64,000 bases of DNA from Alphaproteobacteria bacterium (GTDB taxonomy: Bacteria; Pseudomonadota; Alphaproteobacteria; Micavibrionales; Micavibrionaceae): contig JAUIIA010000004.1 of NCBI GenBank assembly GCA_030432025.1, forward strand, positions 124,001-188,000, read 5' to 3'. The translations under genes and the position numbers were made by a program. Of the stretch, positions 48,678-57,100 are shown in pieces (positions within the stretch are counted from its first letter, which is position 1; each line of letters begins with the position of its first letter). The notes beneath the pieces are model-generated. The model did not search any database. It was not told where the DNA came from and saw nothing but the letters and a program-made list of their open reading frames with translations.

Positions 48678-48992
48678 ATGAAGATTTATGTGACGGATTT
48701 GGAAGGCAAGGAACATGCTCTCGAGGCAATCGAGGGGTGGCGTGTGATGGAGATTATCCGCGAGCACGGTTTGCCGATTAAGGCGGAGTGCGGCGGTTGC
48801 TGTGCTTGCGCCACCTGCCATGTCTATGTCGATGAGGAATGGGCCGATAAATTGCCGGAGATGCGCGAGGACGAGGAAGAAATGCTGGATGAAGCATTCG
48901 ACCTTCAGGATAATTCGCGCTTGTCGTGCCAGCTCATCATGTCCGAAGAGTATGATGGTTTAAAAGTAAAGCTCGCCGCTATTGATGTCTAA
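48678..48992 (+). CDS. fdx: 2Fe-2S ferredoxin, adrenodoxin type
   Basis: 104 residues. The cluster ligands are in AECGGCCACATCHVYV (Cys-x5-Cys-x2-Cys pattern) with the fourth in RLSCQL. DLEGKEHALEAIEGWRVME opens the beta-grasp fold. This class serves iron-sulfur assembly or electron supply to oxygenases and cytochromes P450. It follows a membrane protein gene and overlaps the convergent P-loop gene by 4 bp. No isc or suf genes are near. Confidence 0.93.
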   Translation: MKIYVTDLEGKEHALEAIEGWRVMEIIREHGLPIKAECGGCCACATCHVYVDEEWADKLPEMREDEEEMLDEAFDLQDNSRLSCQLIMSEEYDGLKVKLAAIDV

Positions 48993-50137
48993 ACCAGAAC
49001 GGCATCACGCTTATCAGCCCCATCAGGCTTTGGCAGCTTTGCCGTTATAGCTGCGCGCAGTTTATTGTCTCTGGATGCCAGAGCGCTATTGCGAAGTCCG
49101 TCTGCAATTTCGGGGGTGCGCAGGTCGTCTTTGGTCAGGCAGCCAAAAGGCGGTGACATATTACCAAGGTTTCGTTTGATTTCACGAAGGGCCAGCGGTG
49201 CTGCAGAGGCTACGCCGCTGATGGCCAGTACTTCATATCCCTGATCGCGCATGGTCTGATTGGCTTGAATTGCCCCTAATGGCCCGTCGGCGGCCAAAAT
49301 TATACCATCAATACGCGCCTTAACGCTGGCGGAACTGAGAAGTTGCATATTGTCCTGTTGGAAAATGCCGTCGGCGATTTCCAATACAATTGTGTCGCAG
49401 CCATCAAGACGCAGCTTGTTAATAATATCATCCATGATCCGGTTGATTTGCGTGGTCGGGACCATGTATGTGGACGGGTATCCCATGTCTACAAAGTCGT
49501 ATCCTGCAACTGCGCCTGAATCTATCGGTGCGAACAGGTCGCCGGAATACCCCGTACCCGTTACCTTGCCGAAGCCGACTTTGTGTCCGGCGCGTGTTAG
49601 CCCGTGAATGGTTGAGCACGCCGTTGTTGTTTTCCCCGCGTCCATACCTGTGCCGAGAAATGCCATTACCACAGGTTTATTCAAGGTGGTGAGGCTTCTT
49701 TCCGGTGCTAATGAAAACTGGCGGGTATTCAGTTTTTGGCCATTTGTATCACGTAAAAACCCTCTGGGTTGAACGCGTGTGGGGGTGCCCATTTTGTGGT
49801 TTTTGTTCACGACTTTCGCAGCTACACCTCCACGGGATACGAGATCGCATTCCTCCAGAGTATCGGGAAGAACCGCTTCGTATTCCGCGATTGCGTACCG
49901 TTGACCGTATGCCAGCATGACCAGATCTCCGGTATGGATATCTTCTTCGCGTCCGTTTGGATTCTGTAATACTTTGACGTCACCTATGGATGTTACATGC
50001 GCAAGGATAATATCGCCTATTTGCGGGCGGCCTTCCTTCGTGATCTGTGTGGCGTTGCTGAAGTCCACATTTCGCAGCGCTGTGGCAACGCGCGCGCCAG
50101 CTTCCGCGAACGGTATCGTAATTGTGTTTGGTTCCAT
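48989..50137 (-). CDS. uncharacterised P-loop NTPase protein
   Basis: 382 residues. The first 150 form a beta-rich domain with RPQIGDIILAHVTSIG. Walker A GTGMDAGKTTT (about 162-172) starts a P-loop domain of the BioD/MobB/DUF1611-like kind; DTIVLEIADGIFQQDN may supply the second acidic motif. GYDFVDMGYPSTYMV is unusual and has no clear counterpart in those families. No function can be assigned. An AAGGA element precedes the ATG. It stands between a ferredoxin and usg without an obvious pathway link. Confidence 0.78.
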   Translation of the reverse strand: MEPNTITIPFAEAGARVATALRNVDFSNATQITKEGRPQIGDIILAHVTSIGDVKVLQNPNGREEDIHTGDLVMLAYGQRYAIAEYEAVLPDTLEECDLVSRGGVAAKVVNKNHKMGTPTRVQPRGFLRDTNGQKLNTRQFSLAPERSLTTLNKPVVMAFLGTGMDAGKTTTACSTIHGLTRAGHKVGFGKVTGTGYSGDLFAPIDSGAVAGYDFVDMGYPSTYMVPTTQINRIMDDIINKLRLDGCDTIVLEIADGIFQQDNMQLLSSASVKARIDGIILAADGPLGAIQANQTMRDQGYEVLAISGVASAAPLALREIKRNLGNMSPPFGCLTKDDLRTPEIADGLRNSALASRDNKLRAAITAKLPKPDGADKRDAVLV

Positions 50138-51195: not shown

Positions 51196-52866
<1,671 letters not shown>

Positions 52867-52994: not shown

Positions 52995-53024
52995 AAGGCC
53001 ACTCTGAATGGGTGGCCTTTTTTA
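52995..53024 (+). terminator. intrinsic terminator of groESL
   Basis: AAGGCCAC and GTGGCCTT form an 8 bp stem around TCTGAATGG, followed by a T-rich run. It lies 128 bp after groEL. Confidence 0.8.
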
Positions 53025-53098: not shown

Positions 53099-53899
53099 GT
53101 GGGACTGCGTGAAATCAATTATGGGCAAGTAGTCGTCAATGCGGCGACGGATTCCGGCGTGTGCTTTAACCTCGGAAGTTTGCCCATCAGCTTGCAGCAT
53201 AGTAACGAAGCAGCCGTACTGAATGTGACAGTGGCAGGGATGTCGTTTGCTACGCGCTGTGTCGTCGAATTCAAAAAATCAGCAGAGCAAGAAGGTATTG
53301 TTTTTGTCCCGAATAGCGCGCCTGCGCGTTTGGTCGACAGTTTTGTATCCAACCGAGGTGCGGGGCTAATTACCTCGGGGACATTGACGCTGGGTGCTGC
53401 AGGTTTTGCTGCGGCTGAGGCCATTACAAATAATCCCGATGCCGCGTCTACGGCCGGAATGCTCGGTTGCTTCGGGCTTGTACATATGTTCCGCGGTGCG
53501 GCCTCCGGCATGAAGGACGGGATCAAAAAATACGGGCTGGATTCCGTTGCGTTTGTATCCGCCGTTTCTGCATATATTATTGCGAACCCTGACTTGCCGA
53601 TGGTGGTGAAGGGGGCTTACGGTAGTATTGCTTTATTGTCCATGTATATGGCGGCCAAGCATGAAAAGGCAGACGGTATAAAGCAGCCGGACATTTATTT
53701 TGCGCTCACGTCTTATGCTGCGGCACTTTTGACCATGGATGATAACGTTGAAGTCGCAAAAGGTTTTGCCGGATGGGCGACAGGGTATCTGAGTTTGGAT
53801 GCCATGCGTAAAAAAGGGGGTGTTTGGCAAGCTCTCACAAGTTGGCGCGGCAAGAATAATGATGGAGGTAATGGCCTGGATTTAGGGAACGATATTTAG
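53099..53899 (+). CDS. hypothetical membrane protein with N-terminal beta domain
   Basis: 266 residues with a GTG start at 53099 preceded by AGGTAAGG at seven bases; the open frame from 53012 begins inside the groE terminator. The first 95 residues look like a small beta-barrel with some likeness to PilZ domains (REINYGQVVVNAATDSGV). Several Ala/Gly-rich helices follow (about 105-235), possibly membrane segments. The tail is Gly/Asn/Asp-rich. No family is recognised. It is convergent with the formyltransferase-like gene, 13 bp apart. Confidence 0.65.
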   Translation: MGLREINYGQVVVNAATDSGVCFNLGSLPISLQHSNEAAVLNVTVAGMSFATRCVVEFKKSAEQEGIVFVPNSAPARLVDSFVSNRGAGLITSGTLTLGAAGFAAAEAITNNPDAASTAGMLGCFGLVHMFRGAASGMKDGIKKYGLDSVAFVSAVSAYIIANPDLPMVVKGAYGSIALLSMYMAAKHEKADGIKQPDIYFALTSYAAALLTMDDNVEVAKGFAGWATGYLSLDAMRKKGGVWQALTSWRGKNNDGGNGLDLGNDI

Positions 53900-53912
53900 C
53901 TGTCTTTTCAGC

Positions 53913-55271
53913 TTATCCGTTCTTTTGTTCGGCTATTTCCAGCTCGCGGTCGTCCAAATCACCCTTCGCGATAATTGCACCGCTCAGAAGGTGTGCATCG
54001 ACAAGTCCTTTACCATCATGCGCTGCGGGATCGTATGCAGCATGTATAGATACTTTTTGATCTTCCCAATGCATAACAGCGTTTTCCAAAGCGCTTCTGA
54101 TACGTTTGCGGTCGTTCGCACCGTCGGGTCTGAATTTTGCCATCATGTGGTCCATCATGAACACAGGATCAACAATGTCAGGACGTGTTTCACCGGCTTT
54201 GACTTTTGCTATGACGTCGGGGTCGATTTTGTCGACAAACCCTCTTTCCTTGCCGAGTTCAACAAGTCTGGATAGGACTGTGCTCCAGCCGTCCGCACCG
54301 TTGAAGAACTCTTGGTCGGGATGTGAGTAGTATTTACCCGGACGACCTTCTTCCGCGAATTTATCCTGTGGCTTACCCTGAAACGGTACAGTTCCACCGA
54401 AGAAGTTTTCAATGCGGTCATACAGCATGCGTCCGGCAACCGGAGCCAGATCCGTGTAAAGGGATATAGCTGGTTTTGAGTAGTCGATCGGATCTGTGAT
54501 GTCTGTCATGATCGGACCGGCATCAATACCCTTACGCTTGGCTTTGCCGTCATAAACCATCTCATGCAGTGTCCATTTATAGGTGCGTTGCAGGTTGCTC
54601 ATGGCGTATATCGGACCAAAAATACCGCGATATTCTGGGAGTTTACCCGGGTGCAGGTTCCAGATTTCACCTTTGCGGACTGCGCCGTTGCGCATTTTTA
54701 CTTCTTTGCCGATTTGCGCGTTGATCAAATCGTCATGTGCGATTTGGTAACAACGACAAGATACAACCAAAGGCATGTTCTTATCTTGCTTAATGCGGCG
54801 GACGAATTCTTTCGAGTTGATGTCATCAACGGTTTCTACCTGCACACCTGCAATTTCTTGAAGCTGTTTCGGCGTATACAGAACGTCGTCACGCAACTGG
54901 CCCTTACCGTCAACCAAAGGATCCATGCCTTCGATGATGGGGTAGAGAACATTGTTTGTGAGGTAGCGTTCGTAGAAACTCAAATCTTGCAGTTCAAGCT
55001 GATGGGCCTGCTCTTTGGAAGAGGGCTTGTGCGAAGCCATGAATAGAACCGGCTGGTATCCTGCTTTGATGAGTTGCTTTACAACAACATTGATCGCATC
55101 CAGAGCGGAAACATCGTTACCGACAAGCAGGCCGACACGGGGGCTGTCATCGCTTTGCGGTTTTCCGGTGGCAGTTTTAAAAGCACGTTGAGTGCCTTTG
55201 GTTTTGGCTGTGCCGATTTGATCGCCGTCGCCGCCATTGGCTGCCGTCTTTTTCTGTTTGGACCCAGTCAT
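53913..55271 (-). CDS. formyltransferase-fold protein with N-terminal extension
   Basis: 452 residues. About 40 disordered, Lys/Thr-rich N-terminal residues precede a formyl-transferase domain of the Fmt/PurN kind. The catalytic triad appears intact as Asn205 and His207 in NLHPGKLPEYRG and Asp250 in GIDAGPIM. A long insert (about 80-165) and a C-terminal region of about 190 residues are not from methionyl-tRNA formyltransferase, so the acceptor is likely different, perhaps a sugar or amine. It is in line with the XRE regulator gene upstream, 37 bp away, and may be regulated by it. Confidence 0.78.
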   Translation of the reverse strand: MTGSKQKKTAANGGDGDQIGTAKTKGTQRAFKTATGKPQSDDSPRVGLLVGNDVSALDAINVVVKQLIKAGYQPVLFMASHKPSSKEQAHQLELQDLSFYERYLTNNVLYPIIEGMDPLVDGKGQLRDDVLYTPKQLQEIAGVQVETVDDINSKEFVRRIKQDKNMPLVVSCRCYQIAHDDLINAQIGKEVKMRNGAVRKGEIWNLHPGKLPEYRGIFGPIYAMSNLQRTYKWTLHEMVYDGKAKRKGIDAGPIMTDITDPIDYSKPAISLYTDLAPVAGRMLYDRIENFFGGTVPFQGKPQDKFAEEGRPGKYYSHPDQEFFNGADGWSTVLSRLVELGKERGFVDKIDPDVIAKVKAGETRPDIVDPVFMMDHMMAKFRPDGANDRKRIRSALENAVMHWEDQKVSIHAAYDPAAHDGKGLVDAHLLSGAIIAKGDLDDRELEIAEQKNG

Positions 55272-55308
55272 AAAAAGTTACTCAATCAGATCTCTATAGG
55301 ATCTATGT

Positions 55309-55962
55309 TTACTGCTGTGGGATTTTGATCGCTACGCTTTCCCACGCAATGTTAAACAAAACACGAAAGCCTTCAGCGAAAGATCTGTCCTGAAGCATTC
55401 GAACTAAAATTTCTTTTTCTTTAAAGTTCACGAATGCCAGTTTGTCTCCGTAGGCATAAATACACTGATCATCGAAATGTTCTTTGGGGAACCAACGATA
55501 TTCAGCGAAGTCGTTACTAATTAAATTGGTGTTGCCTTCTTCGGCAGTAATTCTAAAGCTCACCCGATCACTGAGTTCAGACATGCGCTGTGAGTGCATT
55601 TTGAACCACTCTTCGCCCAGCCACTTATACCAGTTATCAGGTTTCGCATTGTGCAGGCAGAATTCTCCACCTTGTTCTCTAGCCGTATTGTAGATGTCGT
55701 TCATGAATTGTCTGAAGCCATCTACGCCTTCAAAAATTTTGATCTCTCCGCTTTTTCTGCGAAGACCCGCATCACCCAAAAATTCGATGTCTGCTTCGTC
55801 AAACGCTCTGGAGATTTTTTCAATCGTTTTTGAATTTGGTTGGTTTGTTCCGTTCTCGATCCGGGCAATTCCGGTTTGCGATAAACCAGCTTTGTTGGCC
55901 AGGTCGTGCTGGTTCCACCCCAAAAGGGCTCTAGCAGCCCGAATTTGTTCAATAGTCGGCAT
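55309..55962 (-). CDS. XRE family transcriptional regulator with C-terminal sensor-like domain
   Basis: 217 residues. The N-terminal helix-turn-helix (about 1-60) reads IRAARALLGWNQHDLANKAGLSQ and IARIENG. From about 75 to 215 there is an alpha-beta domain resembling the PLD-like C-terminal domain of TrmB-type regulators (QCIYAYGDKLAFVNF, then MLQDRSFAEGFRVLFNIAWESV). The ligand is unknown. A dyad at 56025-56044 upstream is a candidate self-regulatory operator. It is followed 37 bp later by the formyltransferase-like gene. Confidence 0.85.
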   Translation of the reverse strand: MPTIEQIRAARALLGWNQHDLANKAGLSQTGIARIENGTNQPNSKTIEKISRAFDEADIEFLGDAGLRRKSGEIKIFEGVDGFRQFMNDIYNTAREQGGEFCLHNAKPDNWYKWLGEEWFKMHSQRMSELSDRVSFRITAEEGNTNLISNDFAEYRWFPKEHFDDQCIYAYGDKLAFVNFKEKEILVRMLQDRSFAEGFRVLFNIAWESVAIKIPQQ

Positions 55963-56024
55963 GATTAATGCATCCCTCTTGGTCGAAAAGTGTTAGCTCG
56001 TTTACGCGATTTGTGTCTTATATT

Positions 56025-56044
56025 GAACATTGATCCGAATGTCC
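56025..56044. promoter_or_regulatory. candidate operator of the XRE regulator
   Basis: GAACATT-N6-AATGTCC, a dyad with one mismatch, 63-82 bases before the regulator start in the AT-rich divergent region to mutM. Confidence 0.4.
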
Positions 56045-56257
56045 AGTGTTTTTTTTATATGTAAAACAAAAAATGCTATATTTTTTGCTAATATATACAT
56101 TTTATATGGCAAAATACCTGTTTGTTAAAAAATTAAGCTATAAAATATGTATTTTGTCGATCACCGAGCTGGATCTTGTAAAGAATTGAGTAAAGATTAC
56201 GAATAATATATGTATGCTCTGCCTTGCAAGCTATGTGAAACCTCTATTTGAAGCGTT

Positions 56258-57100
56258 ATGCCTGAACTGCCGGAAGTTGAAATTGTAAAACGTGCTCTTG
56301 AGCCAGTTCTTTTGGAACGGCCATTGCGCAAATTACAGTTTAATCGCGCAGATTTGCGTTTTGCCTTGCCGGGGGATTTGCCTGATAAGCTGGCGGGGCG
56401 CACAATTACCTCTATCAGCAGACGTGGTAAGTATATTCTCGCCTTTGCCGATAATGACCACGGGTTTGTTTTGCATCTGGGAATGTCCGGCGTTATCAGG
56501 ATTGAACACCCCGAAGAACAGAGCGATCAAAAGCATGATCATGTCGTATGGGCCTTTGATGAGGGTCCACGCATTGTTTTTAATGATGCACGGCGTTTTG
56601 GTTTTTTACAGGCCGTGCACGTAGAAGATTGGCAAGACTCGGCACCTTTTAATGCGATGGGACCGGAACCGTTGGGGAATTCTTTCAACGGGGAGTATCT
56701 GGCGGAAGCTCTCAGCGGCAAGAAGGCTTCTATTAAGTCGGCGTTGCTGGACCAACGGGTCGTGGCAGGAGTTGGCAATATATATGACTGCGAGGCTTTA
56801 TATATGTCGGGTATTGATCCGCGCCGAAGTGCGGGAAGCCTGAGCGCTCAAGAATGCGAAAAGCTGGCTCATGCTATTAAGACGGTTTTGGCCCTGGCGA
56901 TCGAAAAGGGAGGCTCTTCCTTGAAGGACTATAAACACACGGACGGTAATCTCGGGTATTTTCAGCACCATTTTGCGGTTTATGACCGTGAAGGGGACCC
57001 CTGTCCCAAGAGCGGTTGTCCATGCGGGACGGATAATGGTGTGCAAAGGATCGTTCAACATGGGCGCTCGACATTCTTTTGCCCGTATGTGCAGAATTAG
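56258..57100 (+). CDS. mutM: formamidopyrimidine-DNA glycosylase
   Basis: 280 residues. MPELPEVE provides the catalytic Pro2 and Glu3 once Met1 is removed. VAGVGNIYDCEAL and the helix-two-turn-helix region are typical. The C-terminal zinc finger is odd: Cys249, Cys254, Cys256 and Cys275 are present, but FCPYVQ has Val278 where the family has cysteine. It removes 8-oxoguanine. Zn binding may use the extra cysteine of CPKSGCPCG instead. The next gene starts 3 bp after the stop. Confidence 0.93.
   Translation: MPELPEVEIVKRALEPVLLERPLRKLQFNRADLRFALPGDLPDKLAGRTITSISRRGKYILAFADNDHGFVLHLGMSGVIRIEHPEEQSDQKHDHVVWAFDEGPRIVFNDARRFGFLQAVHVEDWQDSAPFNAMGPEPLGNSFNGEYLAEALSGKKASIKSALLDQRVVAGVGNIYDCEALYMSGIDPRRSAGSLSAQECEKLAHAIKTVLALAIEKGGSSLKDYKHTDGNLGYFQHHFAVYDREGDPCPKSGCPCGTDNGVQRIVQHGRSTFFCPYVQN

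Follow-up and report, generated by a model that had tools for sequence, protein, structure and literature searches.

Between groEL (51208–52866, plus strand) and mutM (56258–57100, plus strand), in a window of 64,000 nucleotides from an alphaproteobacterium of the Micavibrionaceae (assembly GCA_030432025.1, contig JAUIIA010000004.1, positions 124,001 to 188,000), lie two minus-strand genes that we refer to as REG and ENZ. REG (55309–55962, 217 amino acids) combines an XRE helix-turn-helix (HTH) domain at residues ~1–62 with a putative sensor of phospholipase D (PLD) fold, TrmB-like, at residues ~67–210. It lies upstream of ENZ (53913–55271, 452 amino acids), a formyltransferase-fold enzyme and the variable partner gene of this cassette, from which it is separated by 37 nucleotides. 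Judged by sequence comparison, the sensor domain of REG tracks the class of the partner enzyme and the DNA-binding domain hardly does so. We propose that REG senses the product of its partner enzyme and that the two form a sensor–enzyme cassette swapped as a set, a reading to which we assign a probability of about 0.55. The first-pass annotation had described an orphan block with a possible defence role; the window genes are neither orphan nor, as far as visible, defence, and are a member of a widespread family of regulator–enzyme cassettes. No published description of such cassettes was found within the one literature library searched.

Contrasting the two halves of the same proteins provides an internal control. 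From 194 REG open reading frames (ORFs) we dropped 25 with duplicate sensors and kept 169, of which 100 carry one of seven partner labels and 69 are unlabelled and were left uncounted. On the tree built from the sensor, the seven labels of the 100 REGs need 10 changes (minimum 6; shuffled mean 55.3), as expected of a receptor–synthase pair in which the sensor is matched to the adjacent enzyme, whereas the HTH tree needs 44 changes against 55.5 for shuffled labels, none of 200 shuffles being as low. Mean sensor identity is 0.377 in same-class pairs and 0.274 in different-class pairs; the corresponding HTH values are 0.439 and 0.445. Among pairs with an HTH identity of at least 0.8, sensor identity is 0.571 for the 38 of the same class versus 0.346 for the 108 of different class. 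Class information per column likewise reaches 0.700 in the sensor (permuted 0.367) and 0.331 in the HTH (permuted 0.280); residues 104–111, 120, 152 and 164–167 are examples of class-informative positions. Individual proteins illustrate the point: the window REG shares 85% of its HTH and 30% of its sensor with the REG of locus L148, which is of EgtD type and occupies the mutM slot, and 44% and 54%, respectively, with that of L029, which is of formyltransferase type and lies outside this slot; L141 and L159 share 92% of the HTH and 22% of the sensor.

The same chromosomal slot houses many chemistries. We find 33 REGs divergent from mutM within 2.5 kb, and for 23 of them groEL also lies no more than 3.5 kb away on the opposite flank. 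The partners of the 33 comprise EgtD-like enzymes (7), S-adenosylmethionine (SAM) methyltransferases (5), LPG-synthase-C proteins (5), formyltransferases (4), GNAT proteins (3) and cyclodipeptide synthases (CDPS; 3), plus one pyridoxal-phosphate (PLP) enzyme of the PALP family and one ATP-grasp protein; three more REGs face a convergent unknown gene and one has no visible partner. Even within the genus of the window the mutM-linked REG is accompanied by a formyltransferase (genomes G000 and G004), an EgtD-like enzyme (G002, G003 and G005) or a GNAT protein (G006); the sequences themselves show these swaps of partner.

REG relatives occur in 49 of the 57 genomes searched, some matches covering the HTH only, and the gene after REG varies between genomes. 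Among the best 80 of 460 matches, the records are metagenome-assembled genomes, most of them entered as 'Alphaproteobacteria bacterium' or Micavibrio and some as Rickettsiales, Hyphomicrobium and others. The non-identical partners cluster into EgtD-like proteins (40 members), SAM methyltransferases (14), GNAT (13), CDPS (11), LPG-synthase-C (10) and formyltransferases (9), together with a second GNAT group of three. Scanned with Pfam, representatives gave the family names Methyltransf_33, Acetyltransf_1, Methyltransf_25/11, CDPS, LPG_synthase_C and Formyl_trans_N, some of these representatives scoring below their cut-off and the 27 partner proteins scanned being a sample. PALP, serine hydroxymethyltransferase (SHMT), aminotransferase, 2-hydroxyacid dehydrogenase and Acetyltransf_6 partners were each met in a single case, as was an ATP-grasp partner below cut-off. 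Most of the families named by Pfam comprise enzymes that act in amino-acid, aminoacyl or other small-molecule chemistry, and the LuxI-type autoinducer synthase had no match in the 27 proteins. In the CDPS partners a Ser/Tyr/Glu/Tyr set, which we take to be the catalytic residues, is kept in 12 aligned proteins, one Tyr being nearly invariant.

The linkage of these enzymes to REG is tight. Six partner profiles find 98 of 112 non-identical ORFs directly downstream of a REG on the same strand; among the 14 exceptions, four are long ORFs overlapping a REG. Because these profiles were built from REG-linked genes and are to that extent circular, we also searched the 57 genomes with Pfam models only and compared the places with those of REG by eye. 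All 12 places matched by PF16715 (CDPS; E 0.001, 7 of them over the Pfam cut-off) are in REG operons, as are 28 of the 30 genes over cut-off for PF10017 (EgtD-like). These 30 comprise 26 genes directly behind a REG, two further tandem copies in G042 and two genes elsewhere (G009:C3 and G013:C41). A scripted check of the profile searches placed 16 of 16 CDPS and 28 of 33 EgtD-like matches with a REG, the remaining five being three tandem pieces in G042, a second piece of one G018 gene and one match alone in G009. As a rough figure, the chance of a random gene falling within 600 nucleotides downstream of a REG is ~0.0007. On this comparative evidence we regard the pairing as a real feature of the family.

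Some arrangements depart from the simple pair. A tandem row of several EgtD-like genes or gene fragments follows a single REG in L091 (G042:C6:32578–36286), an arrangement suggestive of partner duplication. At L146:6084–11015 (the same genome place as L040), three REGs lie within ~5 kb and are partnered by a PALP enzyme and an SHMT-like one. Convergent neighbour genes of 301–327 amino acids stand at L132:4803–5708, L133:6676–7659, L134:6674–7657 and L155:6676–7617, all on the minus strand. The two scanned (L132, and L032, which is the same genome place as L133) had no Pfam match; the L032 gene contains FHYHPPGK, a cupin-like stretch.

The fold of REG is compatible with a one-component sensor. 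In Pfam it matches four Cro/CI-type HTH families only, HTH_3 (8e-14) among them, and its C-terminal part has no match. HTH_3 was found in all 76 aligned REG proteins; among the 25 of 41 matched families listed, those matched by more than four of the 76 are all HTH families, and neither a LuxR-type autoinducer-binding domain nor a GerE-type HTH is present. An AlphaFold model from the 76 sequences (pLDDT 95.0, pTM 0.72) has the archaeal TrmBL2 as its best Foldseek match (8.9e-8). By VIA-align the sensor superimposes on the TrmB sugar-binding domain 2f5t (Z 10.8, rmsd 3.2, 126 residues aligned) and the HTH, over residues 1–70, on the restriction-modification controller C.Kpn2I 4yba (Z 12.4, rmsd 1.4, 70 aligned). 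The winged helix at the N-terminus of the TrmB family is absent and the XRE HTH stands in its place, in agreement with the initial description of an XRE regulator with a TrmB-like sensor, provided that TrmB-like is understood as a fold. Many PLD-fold proteins reach Z 9–13 in the same alignment, and because scores equal to that of TrmB come from proteins with a variety of functions, the fold alone leaves the ligand unfixed. HxK(x4)D is the catalytic motif of phospholipase D enzymes; no such motif was seen, reading by eye, among the invariant and nearly invariant columns of two REG alignments, and therefore a binding role fits the domain better than catalysis. The model thus supports a predicted PLD-fold domain of ligand-binding type in REG.

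ENZ resembles a formyltransferase in its predicted fold and its triad. The Asn-His-Asp triad noticed in the original reading of the sequence holds up, N205, H207 and D250 being invariant across 5 aligned sequences, and so do the long extra regions: at either end the model extends past the formyltransferase core, mostly at low confidence, and the region at ~80–135 has a counterpart in three relatives. Compared with known structures, the low-confidence model matches formyltransferases, related deformylases and 10-formyl-tetrahydrofolate hydrolase domains (Z 11.3–13.7 for the 50 matches listed). ENZ has no Pfam match, so it falls below the gathering score of PF00551 (Formyl_trans_N), which its relatives in L127, L112, L163 and L027 reach and those in L028 and L029 miss. 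The NCBIfam models of standard pathways score far under their cut-offs (ArnA 22.7 of 777 bits, Fmt 13.3 of 201.5, PRK06988 18.3 of 316), and ENZ is thus assigned to no standard pathway; neither of the two outcomes named as refuting in the first-pass annotation was obtained. ENZ-like proteins were found in 6 of the 57 genomes, and five of the six matches, that of the window included, adjoin a REG; the sixth (G037) is weak, at 7.5e-4. The neighbourhood search thus bears out a link of enzyme and regulator in relatives. The partner in L029 (6413–8620, minus strand) is a 735-residue protein in which a formyltransferase part is followed by weak GNAT matches at ~423–490, all below cut-off.

We propose the following mechanism for the cassette. 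The product of ENZ would be a small N-formylated molecule whose probable precursor is an amino acid, an aminoacyl-tRNA or an amino sugar, and the TrmB-like domain of REG would bind this product or a close derivative. Binding would alter the interaction of the XRE domain with DNA and so set how strongly the cassette, and perhaps other genes as well, are expressed. Among related species the DNA-binding half and the slot would stay the same while sensor and enzyme are exchanged as a matched set, changing the molecule that is read; exchange as a block would keep the pair matched. The sequences show the pairing, the swaps of partner and the agreement of sensor with partner class; the identity of the ligand with the partner's product, its use as a signal and the target of formylation by ENZ are inferred. 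The inducible modification function suggested at the outset fits this proposal, a regulator with a ligand-type domain being tightly linked to a modifying enzyme.

Several points weigh against this interpretation. The weak class signal that remains in the HTH tree comes mostly from the CDPS and LPG groups; this tree, built from 62 columns, has poor resolution, and both shuffles and permutations ignore relatedness. Of the 169 non-redundant REGs, 69 have none of the seven main labels; 13 of these have another profile-supported partner (L130, L139 and L074 below the curated cut-off) and four a convergent unknown gene, which leaves 52 of 169 with no recognised partner, four of these lying where a contig or locus ends. 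The second REG of the window's own genome (L092, G000:C6:231913–232482) is one of them. The ENZ model is of low confidence (pLDDT 56), and a class-wide search with ENZ (E 1e-8; 46 places in 41 of 385 Alphaproteobacteria genomes) returned no REG-linked formyltransferase besides the window's own. As most of these matches extend hardly beyond the triad region and probably represent ordinary formyltransferases, the search has no bearing on the proposal either way. Motif searches over 43 upstream and 27 mutM-slot regions assigned no operator to REG. Sugar-nucleotide genes of the GDP-mannose dehydratase and epimerase type stand 1–2 kb from the cassette in L029 (3193–5215, plus strand; formyltransferase type) and L039 (2825–4793, plus strand; GNAT type), and a homologue of one occurs in L060; they lie near a REG in 3 of 181 loci, and glycan decoration is therefore possible for some members. 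Finally, the sensor could follow its enzyme through protein contact, or could read the substrate.

REGs that have no recognised partner (L090, L096, L103, L106, L117 and L118, besides L092) are comparable to receptor 'solos'.

Protein contact is the core of the strongest rival, which we nevertheless consider unlikely. Here the cassette would resemble a toxin–antitoxin pair: a harmful partner would, for example, formylate or acetylate aminoacyl-tRNA, transfer its aminoacyl group or use it up in making cyclodipeptides, the C-terminal domain of REG would bind and neutralise this partner and the HTH would autoregulate, the coevolution of sensor and partner being that of two proteins in contact. 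Coevolution of a neutralising domain with its toxin is a familiar pattern, XRE domains like that of REG are common in antitoxins, and the chemistry of the GNAT, formyltransferase, LPG-synthase-C and CDPS partners could act on aminoacyl-tRNA; the near absence of CDPS and EgtD-like genes away from REG in the 57 genomes would also be expected. The antitoxin matches of REG itself, however, stay below cut-off (Y4mF 40.5 of 71.65 bits, HipB 18.1 of 79 bits), and as no NCBIfam model is reached at its cut-off, REG belongs to no known antitoxin family by that curated measure. SAM and EgtD-like methyltransferases, PLP and SHMT-like enzymes, aminotransferases and hydroxyacid dehydrogenases would moreover be atypical toxins, the C-terminal part of REG makes up a complete PLD-fold domain resembling the sugar-binding one of TrmB, and no PADLOC system was recognised.

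Alternatively, REG may sense the substrate of its partner, an amino acid or a prey-derived metabolite, and induce the enzyme that consumes it. Such substrate-responsive metabolism would account for a sensor that tracks enzyme class, and many of the named relatives are filed as Micavibrio; Micavibrio aeruginosavorus is described in a passage of PMC3189940 as feeding on other bacteria. Frequent exchange of chemistry in one slot would be unusual for nutrient use, however, and CDPS, a single enzyme with aminoacyl-tRNA substrates, is not catabolic, and we regard this explanation as rather improbable. The weakest, an autoregulated specialised metabolite (an antimicrobial, an osmolyte or a surface decoration) under product feedback with no intercellular signalling, can draw on the specialised metabolites that CDPS and EgtD-like enzymes make elsewhere, on sugar N-formyltransferases being the best, yet weak, sequence matches of ENZ in the PDB and on the sugar-nucleotide genes of L029 and L039, and is made quite improbable by the rarity of such genes near REG and by the many REGs that have no recognised partner.

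The family also extends outside the order. The sensor profile was found in 25 of the 385 Alphaproteobacteria, including the window's genome and three of its family. Seven of the 16 REG loci from other orders have a recognised partner (L208, L210 and L212–L216), namely two EgtD-like, two LPG-synthase-C, one CDPS, one aminotransferase and one hydroxyacid dehydrogenase; the nine others, which have none, are on short flanks. Class-wide, 7 of 11 CDPS places abut a REG (the REGs of G075 and G200 being partial or weak) and those of G406, G076, G275 and G111 do not. A phylum-wide sample gave the sensor profile in 6 of 398 genomes; read by eye, the four matches that lie beyond the class are regulators of TrmB type whose DNA-binding domain is a different one. 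Also outside the class, L225, L226 and L227 encode, again by eye, winged-helix plus PLD-like regulators of TrmB type; in L225 and L226 the regulator is flanked on one side by the end of the ATP synthase genes and on the other by a ThiF/TcdA-like gene.

Carriage of the cassette by phages or plasmids was considered and rejected, since the REG matches listed cover the HTH only and none covers 80% of REG; ENZ had no plasmid match and no relative in viral contigs, phage records not having been searched with ENZ.

The first-pass annotation had placed a dyad upstream of REG, at 56025–56044 (gaacattgatccgaatgtcc), as a possible binding site. The dyad exists; it overlaps the −35-like TGGACA of a promoter-like site for REG read from the sequence on the minus strand at 56017–56045 (TGGACA at 56045–56040, a 17-nucleotide spacer and TATAAG at 56022–56017), and its right arm is altered in the ortholog L125, where the surrounding intergenic sequence is nearly identical to that of the window and both hexamers are kept. 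We therefore rejected the dyad as operator, as it is changed in the closest ortholog and sits on the promoter-like site. This site was not among the matches of a consensus promoter scan. An imperfect inverted repeat at 56065–56089, with 10-base arms, one mismatch and a 5-base loop, was read from the sequence as a candidate operator; one further arm base differs in L125.

An expectation-maximisation motif search of the 43 upstream regions, some of which were mis-trimmed where the HTH start differs from the start-motif filter, gave motifs that outscored four Markov shuffles at each of the three widths. We interpret the 12- and 16-base motifs, centred on GTCAA, as the −35 element of the mutM promoter, which runs divergently, and the 20-base motif (TG, then an A/T-rich stretch, then a ATGCATTTTTT-like element) could contain an operator. 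A 14-base TRYA-N6-TRYA pattern occurs in 13 of the 27 mutM-slot regions against a shuffle mean of 5.0 (largest 10). Because spacings of 3, 5, 7 and 9 are about equally frequent and the window and L125 lack the N6 pattern, we did not call it an operator.

The unit between groEL and mutM was first described as three genes. Three ORFs are indeed present, the third, MEM, running on the plus strand from 53012 or 53099 to 53899, between groEL and ENZ; the true unit is the two-gene cassette of REG and ENZ, and MEM is a bystander outside it. We rejected MEM as a third member: counting its own genome, it has matches in 3 of the 57, and at L041 and L148, among others, the partner gene is the immediate neighbour of groEL with no MEM in between. 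Its designation as a membrane protein is weak, as two stretches barely reach 1.4–1.5 on the Kyte-Doolittle scale, and it has no Pfam match. A terminator-like hairpin at 52995–53019 lies 3′ of groEL and ahead of MEM, such matches being no commoner than in shuffled sequence. A defence role for the block finds no support either: the PADLOC models match REG over its HTH only (residues 3–67) and leave ENZ and MEM unmatched.

On the far side of groEL, a 382-residue ORF (48989–50137, minus strand) lies between a ferredoxin-like gene and a small gene of 87 amino acids upstream of groES. These two genes are adjacent in L037 and L041, and in L026 a different ORF lies between them; this site may be a second variable slot.

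Compared with known systems, the cassette is by analogy LuxR/LuxI-like in logic and built from unrelated parts. As in LuxI/LuxR, an enzyme of small-molecule chemistry adjoins a cytoplasmic receptor-regulator, the sensor is matched to the enzyme and partnerless receptors exist; unlike there, the receptor is of XRE plus PLD/TrmB-like make-up, the enzymes are others and the fold of the partner changes between species. In agr-type pherotype variation, too, a variable block of signal plus sensor stands in conserved surroundings, with a peptide signal and a histidine kinase where the REG cassette has a putative enzyme product and a one-component regulator. VqmA, the regulator of the Tdh/DPO system, belongs to a protein family other than that of REG, and in the REG cassettes enzyme and regulator are adjacent and exchanged as a set. 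Amino-acid-derived quorum signals are on record, a section of PMC6622552 naming DPO, which is read by a cytoplasmic regulator, and cyclo(Phe-Pro).

TrmB and TrmBL2 share the C-terminal PLD fold, and by sequence the sensor profile of REG also picks up distant TrmB-type regulators beyond the class; TrmB has a winged helix where REG has the XRE domain, and REG is linked to the enzyme next to it. Type II toxin–antitoxin systems with XRE antitoxins likewise have a two-gene operon with the regulator first and a modular DNA-binding half, whereas the partners of REG are full-length small-molecule enzymes of many folds. The N-formyltransferases Fmt, ArnA, WlaRD and FdtF have the fold and the Asn-His-Asp triad of ENZ, which differs from them by extra regions partly common to its relatives, by having no equivalog match and by its tie to REG. 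Each surviving explanation is thus a known logic (a receptor–synthase pair, a toxin–antitoxin pair or an autoregulated enzyme) made from new parts.

Should REG read the product of its partner, each of the ~100 non-redundant cassettes would name a small molecule to seek together with its sensor, and the family would present a receptor that follows its synthase across unrelated enzyme folds. Were the toxin–antitoxin explanation to hold instead, it would still be an unfamiliar module family with unusual enzyme cargo. More tentatively, and with somewhat less than even odds, we suggest that Micavibrio-like and other mostly small-genome Alphaproteobacteria use a modular form of signalling, in which a constant HTH and slot receive swapped sensor–synthase blocks of several unrelated enzyme folds and each lineage acquires its own small-molecule 'language', a pherotype system with enzymes in place of peptides. 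Quorum genes have been noted in Micavibrio aeruginosavorus, their role being left open in the relevant part of PMC3189940. If our proposal is correct, Micavibrio-like predators would gain a concrete, testable communication system.

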